From NCBI GenBank assembly GCA_022606425.2, contig JAHDVF020001223.1:62001-126000 (forward strand): DNA of 64,000 nucleotides, written 5' to 3'. The translations under genes were made by a program, and so were the position numbers. The notes beneath the pieces are model-generated. The model ran no database searches. It was not told where the DNA came from and was given only the letters and a program-made list of their open reading frames with translations. Numbering within the stretch: position 1 is the first letter of the stretch; every line of letters starts with the position of its first letter. Shown here piece after piece: positions 225 to 58,668 of the stretch. The DNA is from Lepidostoma basale (Eukaryota > Arthropoda > Insecta > Trichoptera > Lepidostomatidae).

Positions 225-650
225 CTCGATATAACCTACAAATATTATTCAAAACATGCCGAAAAAAATAAAAGTGGAAAAAAATGTGTTTTAATTCATA
301 AAAAATCATCATTATGGAATTCCACAGTGTTAACACTTTAAGTGTATCTGAAGTCTCTTCAAGTAACTATTTTTTTATTAAAGCACTTATTTTTTCACTT
401 TTGAGTTATCTCGACATGTTTCGAAGGCTTCACAACTTCATCATCTTCAAACGATTTAAACTAACCTAAATTATTACAAATTTTATTTTGTAATAATTTT
501 GGTTAATTTATATCGTGCTCTCGGTGATTAAAGTGTAAAGCCTTCGAAACGTGTCGAGAAAAATAATGTCAAAAGCGGAAAAAACAATGTTTTAATTCAT
601 AAAAAAAATCGTCATTATGTAATTCCACAGTGTTGACGCCTTAAGTTTAT
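225..650. repeat. Family A hammerhead repeat cluster, tandem and inverted copies
   Basis: Three decayed copies lie together. One is truncated (225-345, plus), one is reversed (346-460, with cgacatgtttcgaaggctt) and one is forward (480-650, with gccttcgaaacgtgtcgaga). The tail GGAATTCCACAGTGTTAAC occurs at 317-335 and, slightly changed, at about 620. CUGAUGA is lost in both hammerhead-like copies; GAAA and helix II survive. Confidence 0.6.
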
Positions 651-1018
651 CTAAATTTATTATTTTATGTGTTGTGCTTAGAAAATGTATTGCTTTGTGT
701 TTGTTCGTAGATAAAATAAATATGTATGAAGTAAATTCAAAATTAATTTGAAAACCTTAGTCATAATGGTATGACTATTTTATTTAAAATTCATAAGATT
801 TGTCCGTGTTTGAATTTGCTTCATACATTTTAGTATATATGAATGCACTGGTGTTATGAATCCTAAATCTTTTAAATTTTATTTTAACTTTTAAAGTATA
901 GTTATAACATGTTACGGTTCAATCTTTCTGACTACACTATCGAGGAGATGGTGTGAAAGTTAGTTAAGTATAGTTATTAAGTTATAATATATTATAGTAA
1001 TATTATAAAACACAGTAT

Positions 1019-1400
1019 AAGTTAGACGAATGTGAATATAAAAATTAAATGCAGTGCGAATGAAATTGTTTTGATGAAAATAAGGAAAGGTTCATTAAGA
1101 TGATTAGGCACATAGAATGAATGAATTAAGATTAAATGGTTAAGAAAAGACATGTTAACGATTGAATTCGAATAAGAAATAGAGTTACACTTATAAAAAC
1201 GTGGCATGATTAAATCAATCAATTTTCAAATGTCGGCAACGTAAGAAGTCGAATAAATCGACGTGCATGCATGACACAATGCATGAATATTGAGGAAGCG
1301 AAATAAGTATGCCAGAAAAAAACTGTGTGGCGGTGCATTATTAATGACTACTCCTTCAGGGAGACGGCGTGATGGTTTGTTAGTTCGTTAATTAATTAAA
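1019..1400 (+). pseudogene. LINE-1 family 3' fragment
   Basis: Decayed C-terminal end of a non-LTR reverse transcriptase. The words gacgtgcatgcatgacacaa and gagacggcgtgatggtt match the better copies at 22640 and 57850. A GTTA/GTTC-type tail follows. Frames are broken. Confidence 0.65.
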
Positions 1401-1724
1401 TATAGTTTCACCAAATTAATTAGTAAACCACGATTAAGATAAAAACAAACCATGTTGTATTATCATCTCGTTAATTTTACGACGAAATAAAAAAGAATTG
1501 AATCTAGGATACAGACACGTCGATTAATTCAATTTACTCCAACACTGAACACTGAAATCAAAATAAGCCAACATTGTTCGCTAAAGAAATATTTTTACAC
1601 CATTTATTTTCGTAAAATATCCACTACGGTTATACTTATGTATATATAATATCACGAATAAATTATAGAACTGCAAGTAAAGGAAAGGAAAAATAACTCG
1701 AAATAAATAGATTTTCTGTCTATT

Positions 1725-1998
1725 GTTTCTTGAACAATTACGTAAAAATCCATGTTAAATAATTAATACGAATAAAAACGTCAGTTTTCTAGAAGTTTTA
1801 TTATATTTTAAGGGAATGACATGTTTCGCCCTTCTAAGGCATTATCAAATGTATTTGTGTTGATAATGATAATGCCTTAGAAGCCAAGATTGCCAGATTG
1901 CCAACATTTGATAATGTCTTAGAAGGGGGAAACATGTCACTTCAATAAAATATAATAAAACTTCTAGAAAACTAACGTTTTCATTCGTATTAGATGTC
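1725..1998. repeat. R1 palindromic repeat with hammerhead-like centre
   Basis: Inverted arms (aacgtcagttttctagaag on the left, cttctagaaaactaacgtt on the right) enclose two facing motifs with GAAACATGTC. In this family the core reads UUGAUAA instead of CUGAUGA, while helix II (GCCUU with AAGGGC) is kept. The flanking tail ttgttcaag next to acaatag is shared with all R1 copies. Confidence 0.65.
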
Positions 1999-2229
1999 AA
2001 TTGTCTAACAAAATATTGTACGAATGTTTAATTTACATATTACAAGAGTAGAATAAAATATTATAACCCGTTCTCAATACATGCTTTAAACCTTAATCTT
2101 GTAACATAATATCTGATTTGATTTGATTCGATTTGATTATAAACAAAAAAAAATCTATGAAAACGTACAGAAAAAAGTACACGCGATAGAAATGAATTTA
2201 GATTGAAAATGAAAAACATTCTTACTTCT

Positions 2230-2530
2230 GATAGCCGTAACTCTTGAAGAGTTTGTCTTCTTGAAGATACCATTCTGAGCTCCTCAATCCTGCGCCTTTT
2301 GCTCCCAGCAGTCCGTTTCGGACAACCTAGCTAGGTCGGCCAGAATATTATCCATTAGGCGGTGTCTCCCTGGTCTCTCAAGTTCGGCATACGTGCCCAA
2401 TCCATGCTTAGCGACCAGCTCTCACGGTGCTCGTTATAAGGGTGTCATTTTGCGGAGCTCTTGGTTGCTCATGTGCCTCCAAGATCCTGCTGAAATACCA
2501 GGTCTAGGTCCCAGGATCATTCTGAAATCG
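2230..2530 (-). pseudogene. LINE-6 family 3' fragment
   Basis: gcgccttttgctcccagcag and tcggcatacgtgcccaatcc on the plus strand match 23935-24210. The coding frame is broken. Confidence 0.7.
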
Positions 2531-2779: not shown

Positions 2780-2855
2780 ATTTAGTTAAAATCCACTGAT
2801 GTTTGTGACTTCAACCGGTTTCGGCAGCTCGCTGCCATCTTCTGGTCAGACCAGC
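2780..2855 (-). repeat. Family B hammerhead-like repeat
   Basis: The minus strand reads CAGAAGA, GGCAGC/GCUGCC, GAAA, CCGG, UU and then GAAGUCA, followed by the AT-rich tail AGTGGATTTTAACTAAATA. U4 of the core is changed to A. GUCA downstream can pair with UGAC upstream, at an offset of three bases. Confidence 0.6.
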
Positions 2856-3037
2856 TATATAAATTTTAAAAAGATTTAAAAAAATATATATTTTCAGTAT
2901 TTAAAATGCAGTTTTGAATGACATAAAATCTCTTCTATGTTCGCCATACTTTGTGTTGTAGATGTTATATGTCTGTCTTTTTCTTTTTCATATACATTGT
3001 ATATACAACACTGACTTTATTATTTTTTTTAATTACA

Positions 3038-3078
3038 TATCAGACATGTTTCGGACAACCGGTCCTTCTTCAGTGATA
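3038..3078 (-). ncRNA. Hammerhead ribozyme motif, family F, complete core
   Basis: On the minus strand, in order: UAUCA, CUGAAGA, one extra A, helix II GGAC/GUCC with a 5-nt loop, GAAA, helix III CAUG, UC, then UGAUA. Every core base of the hammerhead is present. Helix I pairs perfectly over 5 bp (UAUCA with UGAUA). Predicted cleavage is after the C at position 3043. Helix III is only one or two base pairs, as in type I hammerheads of animal repeats, which usually act as dimers. A deletion derivative of the same family lies at 44636-44667. Confidence 0.75.
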
Positions 3079-3370
3079 CATTTTATAAAGATACATATTA
3101 AAAATATTTTAAAATTGCTTACAAATATGATCTTTGAGCTTACTTCTGTGGGGGGAAGTCATTGAGATTAATTAAGAAAAAATTCTCACTCTAAGCCTAT
3201 ATTTTAGAAACATTTTTTTGCAACTCAATAACAACCATAATGCATTAAAAGTATTATTCGATAGTAGATGTTAATAATCTATATTTATAAATAATCGTGA
3301 AGTGTTGGTTAGATCATATAGCAAAATAAAACATTTCCGAGAAAATAAAACTCAATCACGTATTCAAGAG

Positions 3371-4004
3371 AATGATTGTTGAATTTTCTTTCTTTTTAAT
3401 TCTGTGCCAATAAAACGCACGGAAAATAACAAACACCACTTTTTTCTTTTCTTTTCAAGCTTAGTGTGAGAATGACACATATAATGTTTGTGTAATACAT
3501 TATCTACAAGATTTTATAGTGCATTGAAATAGATAATTATTTAACGTTATTTAAAAAAATGTTATTCTTCTTGTTGTTTCTCTCCTATCGGATATTGGAC
3601 AACATCATGACTATTTCTACCCTTGATACAGCAGCTATAAACAGGGATTTTGTGCTGCAACTGAACAATTCTTGAAGGTCTTATTTTCTCTACACTTCGT
3701 TTTCCATTTACACACTTTATAATATATATTTTATACTTAGGAAATTGAAAAACATTGTTTAATCCACAATTTAATAAAAAAATATTTTAAAAAACACGTC
3801 TCGTTTCGGAGGATACCTCCATCTTCAGGTGTAAAAATATAATAAAAACTAAACAAAGAAAGACTTTAAAATGATACATAAATACGCATTTAAAATGATT
3901 GTTGAATTTTCGTTCTTCTCAATTCTGTGCCAATAAAATGTACGGAAAATAACAAACACAATTTTTTTCTTTTCTTTTCAAGCTTAGTGTGAGAATGACA
4001 CATT
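3371..4004. repeat. 110-bp direct duplication (3371-3480 and 3895-4004)
   Basis: The two segments agree over most of their length, for example cttttcaagcttagtgtgag in both, with a few substitutions. They are 524 bp apart in the same orientation. The second copy lies inside the loop of the family E inverted pair. Non-coding. Confidence 0.7.
3794..3832 (-). ncRNA. Hammerhead-like motif, family E, cleavage-site mutant
   Basis: The minus strand has ACAC, CUGAAGA, GGAGG/CCUCC and GAAA, and helix I pairs ACAC with GUGU. The NUH site reads GAC instead of GUC, so the U that should pair with the last A of GAAA is lost. Predicted inactive. Inverted partner of 4424-4462. Confidence 0.55.
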
Positions 4005-4423
4005 TTCACAAGTTCAAAATCTCTTGTACAAGTTTGTGTAATACTTTGCAATTATGAAAACATAATTAATAATTAGATTCCTCCTTTAACTCCTTTCTCC
4101 TTAAATACTTTGTCTACATTTAATCTCCCAAGCTCCCATTTGCAATCAAATGCAAATTAATCATTTATTTATATCTATATAAATTATGCCTTTTCAAATG
4201 TATGTTTTTTCTAAACTGCATTTTTTATTATATAAATATTTTTATATTATCATCATGTATTATTATTATTTAATATTATTTATTATTTCTTACTGTAAAA
4301 AAATAATTATTAGTACCTACTTATAACAAATAGCACAGGTTCATTTTTAAATTTGAATTATTGTATCAAATTTCAAATGCGTTATTTATAAGTCTTTCTT
4401 TGTTTAGTTTTTATTATATTTTT

Positions 4424-4462
4424 ACACCTGAAGATGGAGGTATCCTCCGAAACATGTCGTTT
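4424..4462 (+). ncRNA. Hammerhead ribozyme motif, family E
   Basis: Order: ACAC, CUGAAGA, extra U, helix II GGAGG/CCUCC with a UAU loop, GAAA, CAUG, UC, GUUU. The core is intact. Helix I is weakened, because ACAC faces GUUU rather than GUGU. It is the right arm of a large inverted pair with 3794-3832. Confidence 0.65.
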
Positions 4463-4520
4463 TTTTTTAATATTTTTTATTAAATAGTGGATTAAACAAA
4501 GATTTTCAATTTCCTAAGTA

Positions 4521-6048
4521 TAATACTATGGAATTCCACAGTGTTAATGCCTTAGGTTCAATAAAAATTTAAATAAGTAATTATTTTAGGTTATTTCAAA
4601 AAACTGTAATATAATAATACTTACGTTAATAATATGCATTGTGTCTTCGTCTTCTGCATGGTTTAGACATTGTGCTCTGTTATTCTCTGCATCAAGTTCC
4701 TTTTTAACCATACTGCCAACTGTTCTTCTATCTTTTTGGGATCTGCTTCTTTGAGGTAAACCATTCCTTGCTGCTTTTACGGCATTCGATTTTTCTAATC
4801 TTGTCACATGTTCATTCTAGATCCAAATAGCTCTCTGATGTCCGTGTTTCGTATTATTGATGCAACAAGATGGCGTCCATAGCTGTCATTTGAAATATTT
4901 CACAATATTTTTTTGCATTATGGCCATTATTTGAGTTCTTTTAGAACTGTGTAATGGTTTTTGAAAATATAATTTTAATCGCTATATAATCCACATTAAA
5001 ATTTTTCATGTTTTTACAAAATTAAAAAAGATGGCAAATGAAGGATAAAAGTAAGATAAATGCCGTGAAAATTATAATACGAGTAGATAATTGCTTCCGC
5101 TATTGATTATATTATATTATGTATAAATGTCGTGTCTTTTATGTCAAAAATAAAATGAAGAAAATGAACCATGAATATTTTACGAGTGAATAATTAAGCT
5201 TTCGTAGGTTTATCATTTTGATAAATTCCATTAAAACAAATATTAGAGGATTTTCTCGTTTTTCAAATGCTTACAATTATATTTTTTCATCGTTAATTTT
5301 CTCTGATCGTTAAATTTTTCCTTGGTGAGTGATTGAAGAGCACTGTACTATATTTAAACTGTTAAAAAGTAGCGACATCCGGTCAGGAAACATTTTTTTT
5401 TTAACTTTAAAACAAATTATTTTTCTGGTAATTCAATGTTTTTACTGAAATCTCGTTGGGACGATCCAACTTGAAATAAATAATGTAAAAATTTAACGTT
5501 TTTTTAATGACTGCCAAAGTTTATAACTGTTCGACTGCTGATATAATCATAAATATCTTATTCTTCCTACCTTCGTTTCCTCTCTCCCGAAGGTCGTGAT
5601 CCATTGACCTGCCCGTAGCTAAGACAAAACGAATATCATCCTCTCTGTTTTCCACTGACTTCACTGCTGATTAAAATCTCCTTCAATCATCTCCTTAATC
5701 AGGTCACACCGCCACTCAGGAGATCTGCCTTTATTTCTTTTACCCTGAACACTTATTGTGACAATACTTTCTTTCCTGTGACAATAATGTTCTTGTGGCA
5801 ATAATGTTCTTCTAGAAGGTGCACTTGTCGTCAGTTGGACGATCCGGACATTTTGTTTATTTAATTTATATTCCACGTATCCACCGTTTTTTTAATTAAC
5901 TGTAATTAGGCACTTACAACAATCCAACAACAGCAAAAACTTTAAAATATTATTGAACAATTTATTAAAATTGTCATTGAAACAAATGAAAAAAATATTT
6001 TTACACCTGTCAAAATTCTTTTTATAAAAGAAAAAAATTATATACCTA
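4521..6048. other. Mostly featureless AT-rich stretch
   Basis: A family A tail scrap (ctatggaattccacagtgtt, 4525-4545) and the LINE-like scrap at 5640-5880 are the only items noticed. Confidence 0.5.
5640..5880 (-). pseudogene. Possible non-LTR RT C-terminal scrap
   Basis: A 71-codon reverse-strand frame contains GKRNKGRSPEWRCDLIKEMI, like the GR(S/P)xxRWxDD segment of LINE tails. No other supporting sequence. Confidence 0.35.
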
Positions 6049-7745: not shown

Positions 7746-7796
7746 TGCCATAATACCTTCAAAATTATTACCTGTTAAGTTTACAACACTGTTATA

Positions 7797-7985
7797 ATAT
7801 AATCAAATGATTTAACTGAAATCTCTTGATGGAAATTCATTTTAAATAATAATTAAATGAAACTTTATTTTTATAACTACTTTCACATTTGTCTTTATTT
7901 CGACAGAGACCGGTTTCGCCAGGCTCGCTGGCATCGACAGACTGGACCAGTCTTGTTTTTTTTTATAACAACTTCCAAGTAGTTA
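7797..7985 (-). repeat. Family C hammerhead-like repeat
   Basis: The minus strand carries CUGUCGA, GCCAG/CUGGC, GAAA, CCGG and GUC (7903-7945), then a tail with AAATGAATTTCCATCAAGAG (7825-7846 region, reversed). The A6 position of the core is U. Relatives are at 12297-12655 and around 23829-24240. Confidence 0.6.
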
Positions 7986-8499: not shown

Positions 8500-8675
8500 C
8501 TCTTTAGAACATTACAACATGAGCCAAATCGAATCACTATTATATTGATTTTTATAACATGTGATAGGTAGCTGATCATGAGAATCATACTGTCGTCACC
8601 GGGAATCGAACCTGCGACCTTCAATGTAGCAGTCATAACTCTTGCCACTCTGTTACAAAGGTCGGCAATGTTTGA
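8500..8675 (-). repeat. SINE-A copy, diverged
   Basis: The plus strand shows accgggaatcgaacctgcga (B box reversed) and gtgataggtagctgatcatg, matching the other SINE-A bodies. The A box is recognisable at about 8640-8660. Confidence 0.7.
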
Positions 8676-9809: not shown

Positions 9810-10060
9810 TTCGCATTTAAAAAGTAAATTTTTTTTGTTCTTTGAATTTTCACGGTAAAAATTCATTGAAAATAACGAATATAAAAATAAATAAATAAAT
9901 AAATTTAAATGTATATTTAGTTTAAATCCACTAATGTTTGGATCTTCGACCGGTTTCGGCAGCTTGCTGTCATCATCAGATCGAGCTACCGAAACCGGTA
10001 GAAGACACAAACATTAGTAGATTTTAACTAAATATACATTTAAAAAAAAACTTTTTTTTT
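9810..10060. repeat. Family B head-to-head repeat
   Basis: Tails with ACTAAATATACATTT-type sequence face outward on both sides of the hammerhead at 9941-9983 and its truncated partner (ctaccgaaaccggtagaag, 9985-10004). The left tail also contains a TAAA run (9886-9903). Confidence 0.6.
9941..9983 (-). ncRNA. Hammerhead ribozyme motif, family B
   Basis: The minus strand has CUGAUGA, extra U, GACAGC/GCUGCC (one mismatch), GAAA, CCGG and UC. It is followed by GAAG and then AUC, which can pair with GAU upstream of the core. Of the family B copies this one has the most canonical core; others read CAGAAGA. A truncated inverted partner follows at 9985-10010. Confidence 0.6.
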
Positions 10061-12296: not shown

Positions 12297-12655
12297 ATCA
12301 AATGATTTTACTGAAATCTCTTGATGGAAGTTCATTTTAAATAATAATTAAATAAAACGATGTTTTTTTAACTACTTCCACTCCATTTTTTCCATTTTTC
12401 CATTTTTTCAAACATTATACAAGAATATGTAAGAGATAATAAAAATTAAAACCCATTGTATTAAACACGAACCTCCAAGAATACCTGTAATACCAATAGT
12501 TAAATTCAGAAAAATTTTACATAAATATTTGAAGATTATTTTTGTATAGAATCGTGTTTACCACCCCTGATCTGTATGTATATAAAGGACTAAGTTTACA
12601 AAAGTGTTACCAGTCTGTCGCTGCCAGCGAGCCTGGCGAAACCGGTCGCTGTCTA
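12297..12655. repeat. Family C repeat, inverted tail and hammerhead-like motif
   Basis: The left part (12297-12385) is the family C tail in reverse. The right part (12606-12652) carries CUGUCGC, GCCAG/CUGGC, GAAA, CCGG and GUC on the plus strand. Between them is AT-rich sequence with no recognised feature. Confidence 0.55.
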
Positions 12656-13790
12656 AATATATTTAAAATTTAATAAGATCATAATTCAGATACAAATTAT
12701 CAAAGCTTTGCAGATATTCCACTCATTAGCATGATAAACTTATTTAAAACATTAAAACGAAAATACAAATAAAAATTGATCACACATATTTCGAAATGTA
12801 CTTTTATATTAGTTAATTTTGTACAATATAATGCATTGACAAATTTAATCTACTCTATAGTGATATTTGACATTTGATAATCTATAAAATCAAAACATAA
12901 AATATGAAATAATGAAACAACATGAATATTTAAAACTTGCTACATGGTTTCCTATTTCAACATTTATTCAATATAAATTAAAACAAAATATTTTGCGTAA
13001 AAACATAAATACGAAAAAAATACTATAAATATTACATACAAAATCATCTACCAAATCCTTGCCTAGTGGCGCCAATCGATTCTAAATTGAAAGACAATCA
13101 GAATTTCAAATTTCGAACGCTCTTCAAATTTCAAGCAGTGTTCTAATGTTTCAAAGAACGAATGTAGATTTTTTATAATTTGAATTTCAAATGTATTTTA
13201 AATGCATGAAAATAATTTGAATTCTCACAGCACCCCACATGAATTAATTAACGGAACAGTTTTTAAATATGACAAAACATTAAAAATTAAAAATATGTAA
13301 GACTTTAAAAGTAAATTTATTAATTAAAACATCGTTAAGAGTATTTTGTTTTAACACCACATAATCATGTTTTTTTAAACTAGCAATCTGGTTTTCCTCC
13401 AAACCTTAGCTTTATTAGGATGTATCGCTGATTTGATGAGAAACCGGTTAGTAGTTTTAAAAACAAAATAATGTAGTGTTTTAATGTATTTTCAAAAACG
13501 TCGTACCACAAAACAAGTGCCCAATACGAAAGTATTAGAACATTTATTTTAAGACACTTACTCGAACTTAACACTTGTTTTTTTTTATTGCAATTGTTTC
13601 CATTTATTGGTCTTGTAGATATAGAAGGGTACCCAACGCTTACTTGGGGTTGTTATTAATGCTGTCTCAAAATCACTGTTTACAAGGTTTTGGTTGAATT
13701 AAGTGTGGGGCCGATCTATTATGACAGCTGTCAAATTAATTAACATAAACATTTTTAACAATGTTATTTGATTAATATTGTTGGTAACAA
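12656..13790. other. Stretch with no recognised feature
   Basis: AT-rich. A 64-codon reverse frame at 13380-13574 has no family resemblance. The words gtgcccaatacgaaagt (13517) and agtgcttcatacgaaagt (21609) are similar, hinting at another shared repeat tail. Confidence 0.5.
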
Positions 13791-14125: not shown

Positions 14126-14815
14126 TATTGTTGGTACTTTACAAATGGGAAAGATTCTACATCACATTCTTTGAAAATGTTATTTAGAATCATCAGTGTA
14201 GAGCATTAGGTAGCCAAATTTGTAACACGTATATAAGGAATAATAATACATTCATAGTCGTATTAAATAATAATTTCACATTTATGGTAACTGTGAGACA
14301 CATGGTCACTTCACGGATTTCAAAACTGATATGACGGTTCATACGGCCCCATAAATCTCCATGTTGGAAAATTTGTTTATGGTACTTACGGCCTGGTAAA
14401 GACTATCAAGACGGCATTTAGCTGCAGTTCACTTCCTGGGCCCGTCCTCCATCCGACCGGGGATGCCATTAACAGTTATTTCATTTGAGAAAATCAATGG
14501 AGACATTAGGCCACTTTTAAGGCTTTCTATTTTTCTACACACGGTCTTGTGGACAGGTCGGATACCATAAAACAATCACCAAATCACATTTCCAACAGAC
14601 GTAAGAGGAAGCTAAACCTCTTTATGCCAAAAGATAAATCTCCAAGTCAAAGAACCCCTCCTTTCGTATTCAGTGGAATGTTCTATTATATTAATATTCT
14701 GGGTATTGTACTAAAATCTTGATATTTTTGATTGAAACATTTTTTTATACAAAGTTTGTTTCTTTGTAACACAAAAATTTATTTTTAAATACATTTAGAA
14801 TTAAAAATTACACAT
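14126..14815. other. Stretch with no recognised feature
   Basis: The segment 14390-14640 is richer in GC (ccgtcctccatccgaccggg) than its neighbours but shows no open frame or repeat match within the window. Confidence 0.4.
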
Positions 14816-15029
14816 TGATCCAAAGATGTTTCGAGACGCAGAGCCCTTCATCTGTGCAGTTAAAATATTATAAATATAAAATAAATATTTAAACATATTT
14901 TATCATGAATTTTAACATCTGTCAAAACTTGACCACATTCGTGATGAAATTTGTTTGATTATTTATTTTCTATATAGTATATGATATATTATTGTAACAC
15001 CTGATGATGTCAACATAGGTTAAGGAAAA

Positions 15030-15360
15030 AGCTGTCATGCACGCGCGTCAATTTCTCTGACTCCTCACATGGCCGACTTTCAATATTTGATTTATATGAT
15101 CGTGCCACGTTTTCCTCGGTCTTCCTGTATTTCTGGTTCCATTTACATCGTTAACATATTATCAATCTTAATGATCTTTCATTATTTTGTTCATAACACC
15201 ATCATTCGCACCGCATTCACTTCTTATATTTTCATTCGACACTCTATCATACACAGAGTATCCACACATTCGTCTAAGAGATCTCATTTCCACTGCATTT
15301 ATTCTACTTTCATCCTTCTTTTGCCAGTTCCATGCTTCGCTTCCATACATATACATTAAA
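15030..15360 (-). pseudogene. LINE-1 family fragment
   Basis: The reverse strand reads MYMYGSEAWNWQKKDESRIN and MRSLRRMCGYSVYDRVSNEN, the C-terminal region of the RT, then breaks. It lies between the two family H hammerhead-like motifs. Confidence 0.75.
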
Positions 15361-15386
15361 CAGTTTATAGTATATAATATTTTAAA

Positions 15387-15430
15387 TACACTGATGAAGG
15401 GCTTCTGTATCCCGAAACATGCTTAGTTTA
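15387..15430 (+). ncRNA. Hammerhead-like motif, family H
   Basis: CUGAUGA (15391-15397), extra A, GGG/CCC helix with a 9-nt loop, GAAA and CAUG are present. The next bases are CU instead of UH, so the cleavage site is damaged. A minus-strand partner lies at 14820-14860 (core CAGAUGA), with a LINE-1 fragment between them. A third, decayed copy is at 24354-24392. Confidence 0.5.
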
Positions 15431-16239
15431 ATGTGTATTTTTTATTTTATTTGTATTTAAAAATAAGGTGTTGAGTTACAAAGAATAATATATTGTTCAA
15501 TTATGGAACCGCCACACAAAGAAATTGTGTATGAATGTAGAAGACACAAATTTTGTTGTTCGAAATTTGGTTCCATCAGCGTTCTAAATTTAATTGCAAC
15601 AGCGATACATCTTCTAACGATGTTTAATCTATGGTTTGTTGCAGAAGTTCGTTAATTTAAAATTAGAACGTGCTTTTAAAATGGTGGCACAGAAACACGA
15701 ATAAACACGCCGTAACATCGGAATTGTCTCTGCCTTGTTTATTTTTCGTAACAAGCGAGTCTTCTAATGTGTATTATTGTTATTTGGCAGGCATCAGTAA
15801 TGTAGATCAGAGGTCGCCAACCTTTTTGCGCAACGAACCGGATTGTAAACATTTTAAACTTTAACACACTCCAAAACATTATTTTTATAATTTACGAGTA
15901 TATCTTTGCATATTAGCTGAAGATGTAATGTAATACTGTAAAGCATAGGTTTTCAATCTTTTCTGGGCCAACGCCCCCTTTACAAGAAAAATAAACGTTC
16001 AACCCCCCCCCCCTCCAATAAATGTTATTCCAAATATTTAGAAACATAATTGAATTTTAAAATATTATTAAATCTTTTATGTATCTGAAAAAGACATATA
16101 TGGTAGAATACCTGTATGTCTTTTTAGACTATATTTTTTTATCTGCCTACGCTCTCTATTTTATCTGGGTCTTCTACTGCCCCCCTGAAAGTCTCAAACG
16201 CTTACAAGGGGGCGTTATAGCCCACTTTGAGAACCTAGG

Positions 16240-44630: not shown

Positions 44631-44668
44631 AATATCAAACATGTTTCGGGCAACCTCAGTGATAATAT
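44631..44668 (-). repeat. Family F hammerhead deletion derivative
   Basis: The minus strand keeps helix I (UAUCA with UGAUA), GAAA, CAUG and UU. About nine bases of the CUGAAGA/helix II segment present at 3038-3078 are deleted. Confidence 0.55.
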
Positions 44669-44669
44669 A

Positions 44670-44792: not shown

Positions 44793-44846
<54 letters not shown>

Positions 44847-45140
44847 GTATACAACAGGTTGCTTGAACCCAATTACAGTATACATTTTTTTTTTTAAGCT
44901 GATATATTGATTCTCGTGACATGTGACAGGTAGCCAATCTATCGCCATTTTATTGTCACGTGAATACTACGCCAGACCAAAGACAATGTGACAATCACAC
45001 TGCCATCGCCGGGAATCGAACCCAGAACCTTCGGAATGGGAATCAGAGCTCTTACCACTCTGCCACGAAGGTCGTCATTGCGCAGCCAAGAGATCTGCCT
45101 TCTCCCTGCCCCCCTGGGGCCCTCTATTTTTCCCTTCAAT
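44670..45140 (-). pseudogene. LINE-3-related fragment split by SINE-A
   Basis: Its 3' end (ccctgtcaggtccccccaac on the plus strand) runs to 44796. SINE-A occupies 44797-45075, and the LINE resumes at gcgcagccaagagatctgcc to about 45140. Confidence 0.8.
44797..45075 (-). repeat. SINE-A, full-length tRNA-derived SINE with 48-bp poly(A)
   Basis: Read on the minus strand from 45075, it has an A-box-like TGGCAGAGTGGTAAGAGC and a B box GGGTTCGATTCCC. A body follows, then an A run, a GTATAC-bounded segment and a 48-base poly(A) (poly-T at 44797-44844). It is inserted in a LINE-3 fragment that continues on both sides (44670-44796 and 45076-45140). Confidence 0.85.
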
Positions 45141-47032: not shown

Positions 47033-47704
47033 TATTTATATTTCTGTCCACCCCTAAGCAGATAAACTAAATGGCGTGGTTAGTTTCCATAAAGATATTT
47101 TTCCAAAAAAATATTGAATAAAAAATACAATTTAAAAAATAAATAACATTAATTAGCTAATTTGTATATCATCTAAAAAATTATATATTATATATATGTA
47201 CTGGATGTATAAAATTTATCATGAAAATATCTCTGGTATTTTCATTATCTATGGTTTACTGTATATTAATTACTTAGCTCAATACTCCCTATTTGCCAAT
47301 TATATTAAATAACAAAATAGAAAATACATAGTTTAAAAAATAGAATGCTTCAAATTCAAACATCTTTTATCCCTTTCCCTGTCAATATGTAAAAATTAAG
47401 AATGCGTAATTTCTTATTTGCAGTCAAATGTTTTTTTACTGCAGCTAAAGAAAATTCAACATACATACATCAGCTTCTAAATATTATATTATTCGATTAA
47501 AATTTATTTTAAAACTATTCATTATTTTGAATCGATTCTCTGAATACCAATTCATGTATAGATTTACTATTTTTAACACATTTCTATAAATGATTTCAAA
47601 TTTGTAAATTTATTTTAATGTATTAATGTTGTTATTTTAAATGTAATAGTAGAAGTCCATTTATTGTATTATATAATAATGAAAATAAAAAAACAATAAT
47701 TAGA

Positions 47705-47850
47705 AATGTCTTTATAGTATATATTTAGTTAAATTCTACATAGGTTTATGGCTTTGATCGGTTTCGGCAACTTGTTACCATTTTCTGGTCGGTCGAAACA
47801 GGTCGAAGTCATAAACCTAAGTGGAATTTAATTAAACATATACAATAAAG
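47705..47850. repeat. Family B head-to-head repeat, decayed
   Basis: gatcggtttcggcaacttgt on the left and ggtcgaaacaggtcgaagtc on the right face each other. The tails carry taaattctacataggtttat and its complement. Helix II is missing from the right copy. Confidence 0.5.
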
Positions 47851-48700
47851 AAATTTTTATTTATTTATATTAATTGTGACCTCATTCATATTAATTTTGA
47901 ACTATAAAAGAGTTCAAAGATGTTAAGTTCAGTGAATTTTTATAAAAAAAATCTATGGATTTCCCAAAATAATAGAGTTGAAATCAAAGGTAATCCATAG
48001 ATAAATCGATAATAATGAATTGCACGTCTGACGTCACATTCTCAACATTATCTTTTGTTATGTTTTAATATTGTCATACTCGGATTAAATGCATATTCCA
48101 AATTACTTTTATATTACATGTTGATCTGTTTCTAGTCAAATAATATTAATTTGTTCTTAACTAGAATTCTTTCAATTTTAAATTGTATGTCAATAACAAA
48201 ACAATAAAAATCTTATTTGTATTTCGTATCTGAATTATAATATTTTATACATATCACTATTATTTTTACTTCATAGACGATTTCTTAGAGCATCGGGGTT
48301 ATTTAGGAATTGACATTTCTATATAAATTAGGTACTTAAACATTTTTATTTCGTTATTTCAATACGAAAGATATTTATTTTAATGTTTACGTAAATAACT
48401 TGTTAAACTCGTGTTTATCAATATTTAATAATTTACATGTCTTCATTATGTATAGGCGATGTAACAATAATTAAAAAAACTAATATCGTAAATTGTGAAA
48501 ATAATTAATATATTTAGTTTATAATAAATGCAATGACTCGGAATGTATCATAAATGATATTCTATACATTGAGAGAAATCATGTCAAAAGACAAAAAAAT
48601 TATAATATTTAATTATTTCACTTATTCTAATACTTTGTTGATTGATTACTATTTTTCTATTAAGACTCTGTTACGATACTATTTTACTTATATTGAATTA
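47851..48700. other. Stretch with no recognised feature
   Basis: Very AT-rich. The 61-codon frame at 48554-48739 is compositionally biased and not gene-like. Confidence 0.5.
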
Positions 48701-50990: not shown

Positions 50991-51398
50991 TATTTAATAT
51001 ACGAGGCATCAATTGGTAGGCATTTTTGACCTTGATATTTTCAAGTAATTCCACGAAATTTCTAATGTATCTCTAATTACTTTTTTTTCTTCTGCCTATT
51101 AGTTTAGGCTTAGGTAATAGTTTTACTAACGATCTAAAATGCGATTTTTTTACCGTCTTTACCTTTTTCTCCCAAACAAGAAATTAGACAAAAGTTTATT
51201 AGGTAATTACTAGCAAATATTTAATTAAACTGGTAACACTGAAGTAGAGCATCAAAAGCGGGATTAATTTGAAAGTTATGTTGTCATGAGTAGATAACGT
51301 AATCTGATAAGATAATAGTACTAAACATTGTTCTGTACAAATAAGATAATGCACACCCTAGTACACTTCGCAAACAACGAACAGAGCTGAATAGTGAA

Positions 51399-54300
51399 AT
51401 GGCTCAATCACAAAATGGTAGTCCCGCAAGACCAAACCATTCTCGCATCGACGATGTGGTCTCATCAAGTCCAGAGCTCGGACCGACTCCTCCGGACGGT
51501 GGCTACGGCTGGATGATAGTGCTGGTCGCTTTAGTCGTCCAAATCCTAGTTCCAAGCATCGTGTCAGCCTATGGTGTCATTATCCTGTATTTAAACCTTC
51601 TGACGGACTATGAAGAAGAACAAGTGTTCAAGATATGGGAGAAGAACATTATTCTGGTGCCTATTTTGATGACTGTGTTTTGGCTGCTGCTGGAACCGTG
51701 GAGCAGGACGATTGTTTTGATCTCCAATCGACCTCGGGTAGTGTCCATTTCAGGGGTATTGCTGATGGGAGCTGGCATTATGCTATCCAACTTCTCAGTT
51801 GATTCGGAAGAAAACGATATCATTATCAATGTGTTTTCTGGAATTCTTATCGGTAAAGTAGACCTTTATTTTACTAACTAAGCAACCATCATAGTGATAG
51901 TGATTCATACATTTATTAACACTATAGAATTCTTAGAATTATTCAAACAAAACAATAGTTTTTCACCTATATGAATTTGTAGGTTTCACCTAATTGTATG
52001 TCCTTAATGTTTATTCATTTATTTATTTTTGTTGGTACACAAACAATGCATCATGCATCATTTAGGTGGCCCTTAACTATATGGATTATTTATTTATTTA
52101 TAATTTTTATAAGTCTCACCCCCTAATCCTTTTCCTTTAGGGCTAATAAGTAACTGGTAATTTTTTGTAATTTTTATTTAATATTAACAGGTGCCCCAAA
52201 GGGGGTGAAATTTTTTACAAAATTAGTTAAATTTTTAAATTACGAAAAAAATACCAGTTGCTTATTAGCCCTAAATGAAAAGAATTGGGTGGTGAGACGT
52301 TTTAAATTTGAAACAAAATTAATAAAATAGTTTTTGCGAAAATTTTAGAATCTAACTAATTTTGTTAAATTTTCGTAATCGTGCCACGTTTTCCTCGGCC
52401 TTCCTCTATTTCTAACTCCGTTAACGTCGTTTACATATACCTTCTTCACCATTCTATCTTCACTCATTCTTTCCATGTGTCCAAACCTGACCCTTTTTTT
52501 ATTTTGTTCAAAACATTTTCTTTCGAACCGCATTTACTTCTTATATTTACATTTGACACTCTATCATATACAGATAATAAAAAAATTGTTGCAGTATAAA
52601 AGTTTTTTTTTCTTTTTTTTTTTGTATACAACAGGTCGTTTGAACCCAATTACTGTATACAATTTATTTTAGCTATTATATTGATTCTCATGACATGTGA
52701 TAGGTAGCCAATTTATCGCAATTTTATTGTCATGTGAATTCTACACAAGACCAATGACAATGTTGATTTGCACTTTTATAACTTAACAATGTATATGGCC
52801 GTCTTGAATTGACCAATTTTATTGTTTCTTTAACAATGATGTTAACAACAACAAAACTCCATATTGAATAATTAATACGAATGAAAACGTCAGTTTTCTT
52901 GAAGTTTTATTACATTAGGGAATGGCATGTTTAGCCCTTCTAAGGCATTATCAAATGTGGCGAAATTTCAGCTCGTTGCTGTTCATATATGCACACTAGT
53001 AAATGGAGCAGTATATGGCAATTAACGAAAATTTATGTGGCTTTATACAATTTAAAAAAAATAATCATTAGTTTCCTTGAAATATGTAAAATTATTTTTT
53101 TAACAATTTGTAAAAATATGTTTTTATTAGAAAGACTTTATTTCGTCCCCACCTCAAAAAACTTTTTTTGATTTATATAATGTCATTTAGTATTCCCTTA
53201 CTATGTAATCATTAAATAGTCCATTGTTTTGGCCGAAAAACTATGATTGGGGCATGTTTGGGGCAATGTTTGGGGCATGGTTTGGCTGGTTCGGCAGGGT
53301 TCAGCCATTGCGATGAGCGCTTCCGATTATCATACAGGATCCACTTTTCATCACAGGTAATGATTCGATTCAAAATCCCTTCATTATTGTGCCGGTTGAG
53401 TAATGCAACGCAGCAGTCAACGCGCGTTTGTTGATTTGCTTCGCTCAATTCGTGAGGTACCCACCTTTCAAGCTTTTTCACCTTCCCAATTTGCTTCAAG
53501 TGGATTAAAACAGTTTTATCACTAACACCGCAGCCTGCAGCTAACTCGGACGTGGTTTGCGATGGATCCGCTTCCACAATAGCCTTCAATTCTTCATTAT
53601 CAACTTTGGTCTCTGGCCGTCCACGGGGCTTGTTCTGCACGTCGAAATTTCCAGAACGAAAACGTTGGAAACAAAAACGCACTGTGTTTTCTTTTGCGGC
53701 ACCGTCGCCATACACATCATTAATCCTTCGAGCCGTTTCTGCAACACTGGTACCACGGTGGAACTCGTACTCGTAAATAACGCGATATTTCAAGTTTTCC
53801 ATTTTGTAAACTGAGTGACGCAAAGAAAAAAAACAATTGAGGAAAAAACAAATTAATTATAATTTTCGAAACACAAATACTTGAGTAAATAGCTGTATAA
53901 ATTTGAATTTGGAATTCCTAACCAAAGAGAAGATATTTGAGATTAAAGTTGCCAGTACGGCAAAACGCCAATTTCATATGTAAGGACCTAATACGAGTAT
54001 ATATGCATCATCATGGGTGATTTCTTGTTTTTTAATGTGATTCAATATGGGAATTTTTCAAACAGTGCACACTCTCATATTCAAATTGTACATCGCTCTA
54101 CACGCCTTCCCGTCAGCCAGCCAGCTAAAATGACAACTTCTACCTGAATAGGCTTTGCCTCCAGTGCCGCCGCCACAGTTCCTGACCATCTTAATCGCTC
54201 AATACTCCATTTTGCCGTTACCATCATCCCAACCCGTTTCTTGGACGCCTCCATCCCTTGGTTCTTCTGTCGCCGTTGACGCCACCTCCTTCTGCCCCGC

Positions 54301-56440
54301 CGCCATTGCTGCCGACCCGCTGTTAACTCCAACGACCCATGCTCCAATCCTTTCCTTTCCACCATCCATCATCCTTATTCCATTCTGTATCTCAACCAAG
54401 GCCACCCTTGTCCCACTCGGTTCTGTATCCAAGACCGATCGACCCCCACCCAAGGCCACTCCCTGTCACCGTCCTTCGGTCTCCACCCAAGACCTCGGCC
54501 CCTGTCCAAGGCATCCTCGACCCCTTCACACTTTCTCCCTACCCGGGTAGTCAGGTCCAAATGTGGGAAACAACCTACTACATCCTCCAAGTAACCCTCC
54601 CCTCACCATCCAATATAATCCAACTTTATTATTCCAAGAAAGAAATTTCCAACATGTGGGGGAGCAACAGCTTTCGGGCTGGTACTCCCGAAGAGACAAT
54701 ATCCAAGGAGAACCCACGTGAATAATGTTTTAAATATTTATTATTTGCAGGTGTTGGCGCCTCTCTGACGACCCAACAAACGGAGATTTTATTGAAACAC
54801 TATTTTAGAAAAAAAATTGAGATAGTTCAAAAAGTGTATAAAACCAGCATCGTCATTGGCAACGTTCTGATTCCACTGGCCATCGGGATTCTATGTACGC
54901 ATTTTGGTGCAAGTTTGACACTGGTAATTTACGCCGGACTCGTCGTCCAACAATGCCTGACGCTCCTATTTTTCACTCGCCCGATTTACGTCGTAAAAGC
55001 GATGCAGAACAACTACAAAATATTGAAAGAAGCCACGGAAGACGACGATGAACAGATATACCCGCCCCAGGGGCAAGCCGATCTTGAAAGAAACAACCAG
55101 AGCGAAGATGTCACAAATAATAATAAAGAAAATGAAATAATTCCGGACAGGACTGTGCCGAATGATGACCAAGACGAAAATGTAATAGCCACTTTCAACT
55201 CTGCCAACACAACGAGAGAAGTAATCGAAATAGATTCTCCAGTCTTGACCAGATACGATACAACTAGCAATCCTTTCGGATCTAACTTCGTAAGCGAATG
55301 GGATAGGATTGATCGCTTTGTAGAACCTCAAGATTTGTACAGAGAAACAACTATAGCCGCAGACGCGGTAGGTGACAATGTCTTCACATACGAACCGCAA
55401 AGCATCAATCCTGGAACCGCGAGAAGAACGGCCAACACAAAAAAGAACATCTTTATATTTCTTTCAGTGCTGAAGGATAGAAAGTTTTACGCTTTTACAC
55501 ACATTTTACTCACTCTGAGGTTCTCCATGCTAATGTTTGGAGTATTGTTCCCTGCATACATCTCGCAGCAAGCTCCCGAGATGGAAATGATGACGGTTAT
55601 GGCTGTCATTACAGTGATGTATCTTGGAGCCTTATGCCTCACAGTTGTATCTGTATTCTTCACGAGTCTAGTCAGCGAGAAATTCTTTTTACGATTATTT
55701 AGCGTAATCGCAATGATATCTTTTATTGGTGAGTAAACTAACTTTAACTTTTTTAGATTTAAATATAAAATTAAAATGCTTTTTCATGAAAATAGTCTTA
55801 CAGAGTATTTTATTATTAATTTCTTAAATGTGTTATTATAATTACACCATGGCGCCCCCCTTGACTGCCCATTTCTCCCCCAATTGATTCTAGACCCACT
55901 ACCCACCCTTACACTGGAGTCCAGTACCGCCCCCATTAACAAACCGAAGCTTCAACCCCTATGTGCGGTTACCTGCAGCCCAAAAAAAATTGGTCTTAAA
56001 CTGGGACTGATTACATTTGCAACTTATATATAAACATAATTATAATAAACCTTTTCACTATAATTCCTTAATACTAAACTATACATAATATTATGTTGAA
56101 CTGAAAGAAACTGTCTGAGCAGCAAATGTTTCCAGCCACTGCAACTATTATCTTATTTTATTTAATTCCAGTGATCTGCAATATTCCTTCTCAAAACTGG
56201 AGGGTTTTCTTCGGGATGCTGGCCGTATATTCAACCATCTGCGTCTATGTGGCACACAAACCCATCTACAACACGCTGACGTTGGACTTCGACGCGTCCG
56301 TCATCTCAATAGCCTCCAACTGCCTCTCCGCTCTGGTTATCCTGTTTGTAATGCTGGTTCACAATTATGAATATGCCACCTGCTTTATAATAGCGGGTAG
56401 TTTACATTTTATGATATTTGGGGTGTCTTTCTTATTATAG
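51399..56440 (+). CDS. Monocarboxylate-transporter-like MFS protein (SLC16 type)
   Basis: Three exons, 51399-51852, 54751-55728 and 56172-56440, splice in frame (both junctions interrupt a codon after its first base) to 566 residues. The first ATG is at 51399, after a short hydrophilic leader. PPDGGYGWMIVLVALVVQ near residue 31 is the signature at the start of TM1 in the SLC16 family of the major facilitator superfamily, which moves monocarboxylates and related small solutes across membranes. About six hydrophobic spans occur before residue 235. A long charged loop follows, rich in Asp, Glu and Asn (roughly residues 240-380). A second set of about six spans reaches the C-terminus. This 6+loop+6 layout fits the family. 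The loop is highly acidic and unlike a conserved domain. Substrate cannot be inferred. Intron 1 (2.9 kb) contains a LINE tail, a SINE, a palindromic repeat, a truncated mariner and a GC-rich repeat. No poly(A) signal was confidently placed. Confidence 0.88.
52378..52572 (-). pseudogene. LINE-1 family fragment, intronic
   Basis: The reverse strand encodes FGHMERMSEDRMVKKVYVND and RNRGRPRKTWHD. Both ends are truncated. Confidence 0.75.
52603..52765 (-). repeat. SINE-A copy, 5'-truncated
   Basis: Poly(A) (plus-strand T run 52603-52623), the GTATACAACAGGTC segment and the body (catgtgataggtagccaatt). The tRNA-like head is missing. It lies in the first intron of the SLC16-like gene. Confidence 0.75.
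52810..52960 (-). repeat. R1 repeat arm
   Basis: Reversed R1 tail (tttattgtttctttaacaat), the cgaatgaaaacgtcagtttt segment and a decayed GAAACATGTC (reads ggcatgtttagcccttctaa on the plus strand). It continues into the 52960-53214 segment. Confidence 0.55.
52960..53214 (+). repeat. Part of the 31321-31875 palindrome family abutting the mariner fragment
   Basis: The left part (from about 52960) matches one arm of the giant palindrome at 31321-31875, including the shared ACACTAGTAAATGGAGCAG. The right part (53120-53210) matches, in reverse, that palindrome's unpaired centre (tttatttcgtc, then atcatttagta). The segment therefore looks like a rearranged copy fused to the truncated mariner at about 53212. 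Confidence 0.6.
53212..53991 (-). mobile_element. Truncated mariner transposon with N-terminal half of transposase
   Basis: Read on the minus strand, the element starts at a mariner-type inverted end (TTAGGTCCTTACATATGAAA, from 53991) next to TA. It has a short leader, then a frame from about 53800 (MENLKYRVIYEYEF). The predicted protein shows the paired helix-turn-helix DNA-binding region (GRPETKVDNEEL, TTSELAAGCGVSDKTV), a basic linker, and the first catalytic aspartate in ITCDEKWILYDN. The frame stops at 53212, shortly after the first Asp, and abuts unrelated palindromic sequence. The second and third catalytic acids and the other terminal repeat are missing, so it cannot transpose. It sits in the first intron of the SLC16-like gene, antisense to it. 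Confidence 0.85.
54090..54724. repeat. Repeat P (copy 2), GC-rich
   Basis: The longest copy. It ends about 25 bp before the second coding exon of the SLC16-like gene. Open frames on both strands are a by-product of composition and none resembles a known protein. The end has a small hairpin (TTCGGG against CCCGAA). Confidence 0.55.
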
Positions 56441-56934
56441 TGTTATTAAATGTATTAGAATTAAATATTATGCACTAAATAGACCTAAGAGAGATAAAAA
56501 TATTTTTAATATATACATACACCTAAATAGAAACTAAGAGAGATAAAATTATTTTTAATTATTACACGCGGATAAGAATAAACTATTTTATAGAAAAAAC
56601 TTTTTTTTAAACTCTTGAAACACGGTTAGCATCTTTAGGGTGACATTATATATTATTCAATCACTTTCCACGTTTGCACAGTTATTGGCATATACGTCTG
56701 CTGAACGCAGTCTCCCCCGAGATCGACGTCTTTCATATTAGTGAAGGTACGTTCAGGGGACAAATACTCTTGACTTATCTTGTCTTTCTAATGTCGAAAC
56801 ATCTCTAATGCATTTCTGGTATTATGTTATATTTTTATAATATTTTACCTGTACTCAATAGATGCCTTAAACAATTTGCTGTTTGTAATGTCTTTTGAGT
56901 TAATAAACTGATTTGATTTGATTTGATTCTTCTT

Positions 56935-57345
56935 CAAGTGCCCTGTCGGGTCCCCCCAACGTTGGCAATCACCTCAGCGAACCTGTCTCTCTCCTGCACC
57001 GCTCGGAACAGCTCCTACACGCTTCGGATGCCGGTCCACTCCCTCGCGTTTCGCAGCCAGGCCTCGGCGTCCCTCAATTTTCCCCTCCAACATCAGTTGG
57101 AGAAGGTGGTACTTTTCCCCACGCAGTATATGACCCAGATGTGAAATCTTCCGAACTGCTTGTATACAACTTTCAAACCATTCTTCCCCGATCCATTTGT
57201 TCCATATGTCCAAACCATGTTTACAACCCATCTCAATTTTATTGAGGATGCATTCGTTTACATTCTAACATACATTATTCTTAGTTTACAGCAATTATCC
57301 TTCTTTGGCCAGCTCACTTTACTTCCATATATTATAGCAGAATAC
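56935..57345 (-). pseudogene. LINE-3-related fragment joined to a LINE-1-related piece
   Basis: The reverse strand of 56935-57165 encodes ISHLGHILRGEKYHLLQLML and ends at the gttggggggacccgacaggg 3' end. The 57170-57345 part reads like the RWFGHM region of LINE-1. Confidence 0.7.
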
Positions 57346-57849
57346 AAGAATATCATTATTTGGACAAATTACCCACACTATAAATAAAATAACATTAATA
57401 TTATTATTTTTTAAGTGTATGGTTGTATGCCAAGCCAACAAAAACATTGGATATTAGTTATTAGTGTAAGAAAATTATGGATAGTGCGGTTGTGAACTCT
57501 TTGGGATCTAAATTCAGTTATACTTGTGTTTTTTTTTCAGTTTTGATTGACGTTTATAACAAAGGAATGGTAAGGTATTGAAATATGGTAACCCTGTGTG
57601 TATGAAAAATAGCATAAGTGGCTAGTCATTAGAAGTTTTATTATACTAGTAAAATATTTGTAAAAATGTATGTATGAATTTTGGATTAATTATGATTACA
57701 TGACTTTAATTATATATGGTTGGAAAATTTAAATTATAAGAGATGTTTTCAGTAATTAACATTACATTACTATATATGTAATTTGTTTAATTAAAACTAT
57801 GGTTAAATAAATATTTAAAACTTATAAATATGATATAATAAAACACTTG

Positions 57850-58620
57850 GTATTTAATCACGGTATGGTTATTACAATTGATGAAAACTATTTTCACTTG
57901 GACCCAAGATTCATTAGGGCAATATATAATAATAACTGGTTAGCTAGAATGGCAGTGCACAATGGTGTTCTTCTACCGACCCTTATGTATGGAAGCGAAG
58001 CATGGAACTGGCAAAAGAAGAATGAAAGTAGAATAAATGCAGTAGAAATGAGATCTCTTAGACGAATGTGTGGATACTCTGTGTATGATAGAGTGTCGAA
58101 TGAAAATATAAGAAGTGAATGCGGTGCAAATGACATGAAAAAAATAATGAAAGGATCATTAATCGGGTGGTGGTCTAGGGGTTAGAACGCTTGGCTGCTG
58201 ATCCAGGGGACTTGGGTTGGAGCCTGGACACGACCAGATTCCTTCTTCATAATAATGAGCTATTTTCTGCTCATATTGAAGATTGTAAAATAAATTCTAA
58301 AATCATTGATTGAAATCTTTGGTATTAGTATTTTTTTTTTTTTTAATTAAAAAATTAAAGATGGTTTGGACATATGAAGAAAGAATGGTAAAAAAATTAT
58401 ATGTTAATGGTGTAAATGGAATCAGAAATAGAGGAAGACCAAAGAAAACGTGGCACGATCAAATAAATCAAATATTAAATGTCGGCCATGTGAGGAGTCA
58501 GAGAAATCGACGCGCGTGCATGACACGATATATGAATGTTGAGGAAGGGAGAGAAATATGCCAGGAAAGAAAAGTGTGGCAGTCCATTCTTTCGCGTGAT
58601 GGTTAGTTAGTTAGTTAGTT
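57850..58620 (+). pseudogene. LINE-1 family, longest copy, split by SINE-B
   Basis: The left half (57850-58161) is open for about 105 codons: PTLMYGSEAWNWQKKNESRI, then MRSLRRMCGYSVYDRVSNEN. The right half (58341-58620) reads EERMVKKLYVNGVNGIRNRG, KKTWHDQINQILNVGHVRSQ and NVEEGREICQERKVWQSILS, and ends in gtgatggttagttagttagt. No catalytic RT core is present. Confidence 0.85.
58162..58340 (+). repeat. SINE-B, second tRNA-derived SINE family
   Basis: A tRNA-like head, GGTGGTCTAGGGGTTAGAAC, and a B-box-like GGGTTGGAGCCT are followed by an AT-rich body with ATTGA words and a T/A-rich end. It interrupts a LINE-1 fragment whose two halves continue on either side, with ATTAA at both edges as a likely target duplication. 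Confidence 0.75.
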
Positions 58621-58621
58621 A

Positions 58622-58668
58622 TATTGCCCTCATGAAGCTCGGGTCCAAGAAAAACCAGTTGGCATCAA
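58622..58668 (+). ncRNA. Hammerhead-like motif, family J (copy 2)
   Basis: UGCC, CUCAUGA, extra A, a weak helix II, AAAA, CCAG, UU and GGCA. Helix I pairs UGCC with GGCA over 4 bp. G5 and G12 of the core are changed. The downstream tail resembles that of copy 1 (tacaaagtgttttattattt here). Confidence 0.4.

Follow-up and report, generated by a model that had tools for sequence, protein, structure and literature searches.

Head-to-head repeats with minimal hammerhead motifs in Lepidostoma basale, probable non-autonomous insertions of Penelope-like elements

Results

The 64,000-nucleotide stretch analysed here (the window) comes from Lepidostoma basale (Trichoptera; assembly GCA_022606425.2, contig JAHDVF020001223.1, positions 62,001 to 126,000). 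It is AT-rich, with a GC content of 28-42% in 4-kb steps, and contains transposon fragments and host-like exons. It also carries many short repeats with hammerhead ribozyme motifs, which we relate below to the pseudo-long terminal repeats (pLTRs) of Penelope-like elements (PLEs). By their flanks and stem II, these repeats fall into about a dozen families: A, B, C, D (with several subfamilies), E, F, G, H, I, J, K and N. The grouping was made partly by eye, and K and N are without good model matches. Most of the motifs lie in inverted repeats that are arranged head to head and tailed on one side, a feature absent from the first-pass annotation of this DNA (Table 1).

That annotation had counted some thirty GAAAC repeats and seven complete or nearly complete cores, and both estimates were borne out. 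GAAAC followed by AT, CG or GT and then by GT was found at 25 sites, counting both strands, against a mean of 1.83 and a maximum of 5 in 60 dinucleotide shuffles. A stricter hammerhead descriptor required the core CTGANGA, zero or one extra nucleotide, a stem II with 3 or more base pairs, GAAA, a two-pair helix III and UH. Allowing up to two core mismatches, it matched 13 sites (mean of 1.07 and maximum of 3 in 60 dinucleotide shuffles). With at most one mismatch, the type I core (CUGANGA, GAAA and a UH cleavage site) was present at 7 sites (shuffle mean 0.1, maximum 1), and at 4 of these it was perfect (none in 60 shuffles). Chance does not account for these counts, although one or so among the 13 sites of the loosest search might be due to it. 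A hairpin of at least 4 bp ending just 5' of G12 accompanied 12 of the 25 GAAAC sites, compared with 58 of 1034 other GAAA sites; no choice based on stems entered this comparison.

Between A9 and stem II, each of the 13 descriptor sites carries a single additional base, either U or A; none has the canonical type I spacing. When 0, 1 or 2 extra bases were considered at sites with at most one core mismatch, 0, 7 and 0 sites were obtained, respectively. An extra nucleotide in the core of a viroid hammerhead is reportedly on record, to go by the title of a paper. The published RNA of Poseidon from Anolis behaves in the same way as the window sites: its core CTGAGGA is accompanied by six stem II pairs at one extra base and by none at zero or two (sequence from PMC11167929), and A9-U-G is there the start codon (PMC11167929). 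The extra base is common to the families and a useful detail; it does not define a new class.

Family A departs from the core in a coordinated way. Ten of its rows were aligned; six keep positions 3 and 8, and all six read UUGANAA, with U3-A8 replacing C3-G8, while the other four are truncated or diverged at these positions. Motif sites for this observation are 1808-1858, 20472-20522, 31360-31410, 31786-31836 and 52914-52964. Since the excerpted text of PMC3088659 describes U3-A8 for C3-G8 as a natural covariation that is active in vitro, the replacement argues for function but is not new.

Twelve representative sites, partly picked for having stems, were aligned to assess pairing. Pairing was seen in 95% of stem II cells and in 92.9% over the structure as a whole, and slid versions of the alignment paired in 23-44%. 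Twenty-two cells were changed on both sides, a number reached in 0 of 500 shuffles, but the number of pairs with any two-sided change was 4, no better than in shuffles (238 of 500 reach 4). Because the sites were partly picked for their stems, these counts lean in favour of the structure; the unchosen 25-site hairpin comparison is free of that bias. Stem I was not used in choosing sites. At 18 sites its mean run was 2.94, compared with 1.87 with shuffled partners, and it reached at least 4 bp at 8 sites, compared with 2.3 expected (0 of 2000 shuffles), a shuffle probability that is too small because the 18 sites include several copies per family. The other 10 of 18 had a short stem I or no contiguous one. 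For the site at 3034-3084(-), the minimum-energy fold consists of stems I and II. Monomer folding energy was considered as evidence and rejected, 5 of 6 z-scores lying between -1.1 and 0.13.

The Rfam models gave no hammerhead match in the window, either at the gathering threshold or up to E=10. With a covariance model built from the 12 aligned sites (R1), 18 matches scored below E 1e-4, rising to 26 with a limit of 0.05; 12 of them were training sites. A second model (R2) was built from nine sites with families E, H and C left out; its E-values are rough. R2 gave 23 matches at E 0.0085 or lower, 14 of them outside its training set. Among the left-out families, it recovered 19262-19316(-) at E 2.5e-5, 21487-21538(+) at E 1.3e-4 and 3033-3083(-) at E 1.8e-4, together with two further family C and E sites. 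The first-pass annotation had predicted covariance-model hits at three named sites of these families; the prediction failed with Rfam and succeeded at all three with R2. The families thus yield a covariance model with the extra base that detects motifs missed by Rfam.

The arrangement of the motifs was analyzed with 34 R2 matches up to E 2 and three weak R1 matches. The window contains 28 inverted-repeat pairs within 1.6 kb, of which 14 touch model matches. In all 13 inverted repeats with matches in their own arms, the motifs point outward (25 counts, one match counted twice). The fourteenth row is a LINE-derived repeat (long interspersed nuclear element), and its single inward match is not in its arm but forms part of the neighboring pair 14760-15485. 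Centres vary from near-perfect palindromes with a 1-nt centre (21375-21591 and 9904-10044) to pairs with long spacers. None of the 19 tandem-repeat rows in the window falls at a hammerhead site, and the sole nearby same-family direct pair that we noticed, in family E (189-352 and 482-655), has a decayed first copy. Cis dimers require two sense motifs in tandem. The transcript of 21375-21591 is predicted to form a hairpin with a folding energy of -163.8 kcal/mol, whereas shuffled sequences give -44.3; because the arms pair into so strong a hairpin, the ribozyme is probably masked in palindromic copies.

When the two outward arms of the 13 elements were aligned, similarity stopped at a nearly equal distance in 11 of 13, 51-91 nt from G12. 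The automatic end points in the family C element at 21375 and the family E element at 19260 are unreliable because of nesting or low similarity. Past the common arm end, a single arm continues into an ATG-led stretch of about 40 nt, the ATG lying 63-105 nt after G12. Counting the 13 aligned elements and the B-type element 20895-21759, exactly one arm is tailed in 12 of 14 (9 by motif, 3 by eye). Tail 1, GGAATTCCACAGTGTTAACGCCTTAAG, has four matches, beside families E and B and the B-type element, against 0.017 (maximum 1) for shuffled patterns. Tail 2, ATTGTTCAAGAAACAATAA, terminates family A and is plain in the alignment of family A copies. Other tails, assigned by eye, read MSHHKLSASYES, MCKHKVSASFEN, MEPPHKEIV and MNPQHKVKV. 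Most tails read M[EDNK]F[HY]. Starts of this form occur 16 times in the window, 8 of them in the 2.4% of positions just downstream of hammerhead matches; of the remaining 8, inspection by eye placed 6 in related repeats and 2 elsewhere. The arm ends carry ATG-led tails whose peptides recur (MEFHSVN.., MNFHQEIS.. and MSxHKxSAxYES.. among them), and in the window these are seen without a full open reading frame (ORF) attached.

Target-site duplications were sought by comparing the short-arm flank with the stretch beyond the tail, with boundaries set by hand. Duplication-like repeats of varying length were found at a background p<0.02 in 7 of 13 elements, compared with 0.24 expected. Around 20379-20579 the repeat is an exact 10 bp, and around 31316-31925 it covers 15 positions with 2 mismatches. 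In the seven significant elements, the tail-side copy starts 30-43 nt beyond the ATG. For the family A element 1721-1992, the candidate TGTCWATTGT was not significant (p 0.16).

Discussion

Taken as a whole, these copies are very probably the product of many non-autonomous pLTR insertions by PLEs of about a dozen families. They display the marks of PLE pLTR insertions: a pLTR with a minimal hammerhead, inverted head-to-head pLTRs and a tail on one arm. The core, the stems, the R2 matches, the tails and the duplication-like flanks support the first-pass proposal that minimal type I hammerheads sit here in the pLTR-like ends of PLEs, with the amendment that these are mostly head-to-head inverted repeats and not tandem pLTRs. 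Because neither reverse transcriptase (RT) nor GIY-YIG endonuclease was found in the frames scanned, we do not regard the copies as autonomous PLEs but file them as non-autonomous pLTR insertions derived from such elements.

In this reading, each insertion consists essentially of one or two pLTR copies, head to head when there are two. In a pLTR, an upstream region would be followed by a type I hammerhead of minimal form, which has the extra base after A9 and a palindromic helix III of two pairs, and then by an AU-rich spacer; one arm would go on into the initial 10-15 codons of the ORF. In the mechanism we propose, the element endonuclease would cut the two target strands at points some 10-15 bp from each other, and each of the 3' ends would prime reverse transcription of pLTR RNA at one of two neighboring start sites, one just before the ORF ATG and the other about 40 nt after it. 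The two cDNAs would then join at their heads; this joining, and the priming of its own cDNA by each strand, are the steps that we infer. The anatomy is observed, and the cutting and extension of both strands and the two start sites are taken from published PLE work. Two-strand priming at two sites followed by head joining would give inverted arms, a one-arm tail, variable centres and target duplication, and the insertions in the window fit such priming. Because the arms hold sequence on both sides of the cleavage site, the templates that were copied had not been cut at that site. The putative cleavage most likely serves to trim or separate PLE transcripts that are tandem or read-through, with the PLE protein assisting or the ribozyme acting as an intermolecular dimer.

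As far as excerpts of the sources go, PLE pLTRs with hammerheads, minimal motifs in dispersed copies and pLTRs in inverted arrangement have all been described before (PMC7761336, PMC7229834, PMC3846280). Minimal and dispersed motifs were described by Cervera and de la Pena (2014) and by Lunse, Weinberg and Breaker (2017), both cited in PMC7761336 and PMC6466107. According to the excerpted text of these two papers, such motifs also have a short palindromic helix III and occur both in pLTRs and dispersed; they are described as tandem and dimer-active, whereas those of the window are mostly head to head, and no intact same-family tandem pair was seen among them. The Poseidon element PAc of Anolis carolinensis resembles the window elements in its hammerhead with one extra base after A9, its tail bounded by two RT start sites, its uncleaved template and its AT-rich targets, but it encodes RT and GIY-YIG, its ORF starts inside the hammerhead and its helix III is shorter (GAAACGUC) (PMC11167929). 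There, the PLE protein cuts and extends both strands, starting at two sites that bound the tail; the template RNA is not cleaved by its own hammerhead, which needs the PLE protein to cleave (PMC11167929). The Penelope loci of Adineta vaga, in the excerpted part of PMC3846280, have an inverted pLTR and a 31-bp tail that is optional on one inverted pLTR. They share with the window inverted pLTRs, palindromic head-to-head junctions and the tail on one pLTR. Their pLTR also reaches 12 aa into the ORF and, in several cases, they have 8-10 bp duplications, to which the ATG-led tails and the duplication-like flanks of the window may correspond; they include coding elements, whereas the window has pLTR-sized pieces only. 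On inverted arms, tail and core with one extra base, the window elements match published PLEs; the distances agree only roughly.

Several observations weigh against this interpretation. As the first-pass annotation had stated for Penelope RT and GIY-YIG frames, neither domain was found in Pfam scans of 150 of the 204 window frames of at least 63 aa, and a pattern scan gave two loose GIY-YIG matches and one xDD match, none convincing; nor was a full-length PLE tied to the window pLTRs. The Anolis ORF begins within the hammerhead, with reverse transcription starting 111-118 bp into that ORF, whereas the window ATG comes 63-105 nt after G12. No strand difference in the start site was seen in vitro for the Anolis PLE (PMC11167929). 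The element at 20732 has a tail on neither arm and the one at 22340 is ambiguous. The tail 2 pattern alone, with 6 loose matches, is not above its shuffled-pattern control (mean 2.2, maximum 6). Finally, 6 of 13 elements are without a significant duplication, and the significant repeat at 9904 consists of A/T runs.

The same anatomy might have other origins. One concerns only the way in which PLE pLTR pairs become palindromic, namely self-priming on an antisense transcript in place of priming from the two target strands. The near-perfect palindromes with a 1-nt centre (21375-21591, 9904-10044) would suit self-priming, which the excerpted text of PMC3846280 prefers for palindromes. However, simple self-copying does not give outer arm ends that differ, with a tail on one and none on the other, several pairs have long non-palindromic centres (3731-4523), and both strands were extended in vitro (PMC11167929). 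We regard self-priming as possible but the less likely course. It is very improbable that the inverted repeats are DNA transposons resembling miniature inverted-repeat transposable elements (MITEs), with GAAAC hairpins incidental in their terminal inverted repeats. The flanking duplication-like repeats, the mariner-type transposase remains in the window and the ordinary MITE look of other, hammerhead-free inverted repeats (41508-41969, 61645-62281) are in keeping with MITEs. Against them, unrelated families have a common ribozyme core, the extra-base spacing and covarying stems, the outer end lies inside an ATG-led frame and single-arm copies exist (52818-53213). In addition, arms are unequal in about 12 of 14 elements and duplication-like repeats vary in length, where MITEs call for equal arms and a fixed length.

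Little credence can be given to the idea that a single ancestral palindromic repeat left these motifs as relics and that RNA folding was not under selection. Copies of one family are indeed not independent, Rfam is silent, many cores are imperfect and most monomer-fold z-scores are unremarkable. Yet families that differ in flanks and stems have a common core, the same extra-base spacing and a palindromic helix III, R2 recovers families left out of its training, and family A exchanges C3-G8 for U3-A8 jointly. Barely conceivable, finally, are non-LTR retrozymes, that is, non-coding tandem repeats that spread through ribozyme-made circular RNAs. In the excerpted text of PMC7229834, these are likewise non-coding repeats with type I hammerheads in animal genomes, but they are tandem, with canonical hammerheads and circular RNA intermediates. 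In the window, no tandem array holds the motif and the repeats are inverted, helix III has two pairs only, and copies end at a tail beyond the cleavage site and not at the site itself.

Within the preferred reading of two-strand PLE insertion, the two RT start sites may be used unequally on the target strands in vivo, after the ATG on one and before it on the other; this suggestion is tentative and rather doubtful. If it holds, unequal start sites would leave nearly every pLTR pair with exactly one tail, unlike the in vitro report, and tailed pairs would be a regular insertion product common to a dozen families with the extra-base hammerhead. The one-arm tail is the best candidate for novelty because PMC11167929 reports no strand difference in vitro, although this is tempered by the mention, in the excerpted PMC3846280, of a tail on one inverted pLTR. 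The first-pass annotation had called the diversity of families unusual. Their density in the window deserves note, yet the phenomenon itself has been seen before, since such motifs are common in animals: over 6000 type I hammerheads in 16 families are given for one coral genome (excerpts of PMC7229834). What is of interest is this density, together with the regularity of the one-arm tail; there is no new class. A literature search by title and opening of the abstract, with most subscription papers outside it, returned no report of pLTR-only head-to-head hammerhead pairs, and a search for CTGATGA with hammerhead and retrotransposon gave no match. The insertion mode of PLEs and the role of their hammerheads are open questions according to PMC11167929 and the excerpts of PMC7761336. 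In the window, both ends, the centre and the flanks can be read off many small insertion products, and the construction of such insertions is unusually plain in these copies.

Additional features of the window

Table 1. Hammerhead-bearing elements and motifs of the window, with strand in brackets.
Family	Type	Position	Motifs	Tail and remarks
E	direct copy and inverted repeat	189-655	direct copy 189-352(+), decayed ribozyme; inverted repeat ~366-655, outward motifs 403-460(-), GAAAC 546(+)	direct copy 314-342; inverted repeat, right arm 619-645
A	head-to-head pair	1721-1992	1808-1858(-), 1898-1948(+)	left arm, ATG 1753
D	motif	2803-2854(-)	core CAGAAGA	ATG 2759
H	motif	3033-3083(-)	perfect core, 8-bp stem I	outside R2 training
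B	head-to-head pair	3731-4556	3783-3838(-), 4418-4468(+)	right arm, ATG 4528; 511-nt spacer
I	solo copy	7795-7950(-)	7898-7950	ATG 7840 (MNFHQEISVKSF..)
D	head-to-head palindrome	9866-10044	9938-9989(-), truncated GAAAC 9991(+)	left arm, ATG 9866
I	motif	12605-12657(+)		
F	pair	14760-15545	14813-14864(-), 15381-15433(+)	right arm, MEPPHKEIV, ATG 15503, by eye; LINE fragment between arms
E	pair	19219-19470	19262-19316(-), 19332-19386(+, weak)	right arm, ATG 19432
A	pair	20379-20579	20472-20522(-), truncated GAAAC 20518(+)	left arm, ATG 20418; 10-bp duplication ATTAAAATGA
D	pair	20732-20883	20762-20813(-), 20801-20852(+)	none found on either arm
B-type	pair, arms 20926-21005 and 21677-21759	20895-21759	B motifs 21321-21371(-), 21629-21679(+)	tail 1, left arm, 20895-20921(-); nesting ambiguous
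C	near-perfect palindrome inside B element, arms 21375-21482 and 21484-21591	21375-21640	21428-21479(-), 21487-21538(+)	right arm, MSHHKLSASYES, by eye
G	pair	22340-23245	weak, 22386-22438(-), 23107-23156(+)	MNPQHKVKV on right arm, tail-2-like stretch on left arm; ambiguous
D	solo motif	28899-28950(-)	by covariance models	
A	pair	31316-31925	31360-31410(-), 31786-31836(+)	right arm, ATG 31890
J	motif	40358-40410(-)	core UUGAAGA	
related to H	degenerate motif	44628-44669(-)		
D	pair	47660-47866	47746-47797(-), 47780-47814(+, weak)	left arm, ATG 47660
A	single arm	52818-53213(-)	52914-52964	ATGGAGTTTTG..
K	pair 57813-58733	57813-58775	decayed, by eye only, no model match	right arm, MCKHKVSASFEN

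The window also holds other repeats. The inverted-repeat elements 41508-41969 and 61645-62281 are without hammerheads and look like ordinary MITEs; their ends have TGAGGG-like and TTGCAAA stretches in common. A further inverted repeat at 59283-59582, with 77-nt arms of 91% identity, has neither hammerhead nor tail. MicroRNA-family matches in the Rfam scan sit on inverted repeats and were taken as no evidence of microRNAs. A tandem array occupies 26227-26878, its periods being close to 62 and 125 bp, and a remnant of a Mos1/mariner-type transposase lies at 53215-53856(-) (HTH_48, E 3.3e-16). At 44795-45072(-), a tRNA-Gly(CCC) call heads a repeat whose end is a stretch of 50 A residues (T on the plus strand), with partial relatives at 8579-8670, 16794-16973 and 52603-52763. 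Because of this A-run end and these relatives, the repeat resembles a tRNA-derived short interspersed nuclear element and not a tRNA gene.

Host-like exons were noted at 51345-51881, 54726-55736 and 60192-60734, with transporter-like frames among them. One of these host-like frames presumably resembles the C-terminus of SCYL2. The transporter-like frame at 54726-55733 has an MFS_1 match below the curated cut-off, and one relative of the transporter-like frame was found, at 68% identity.

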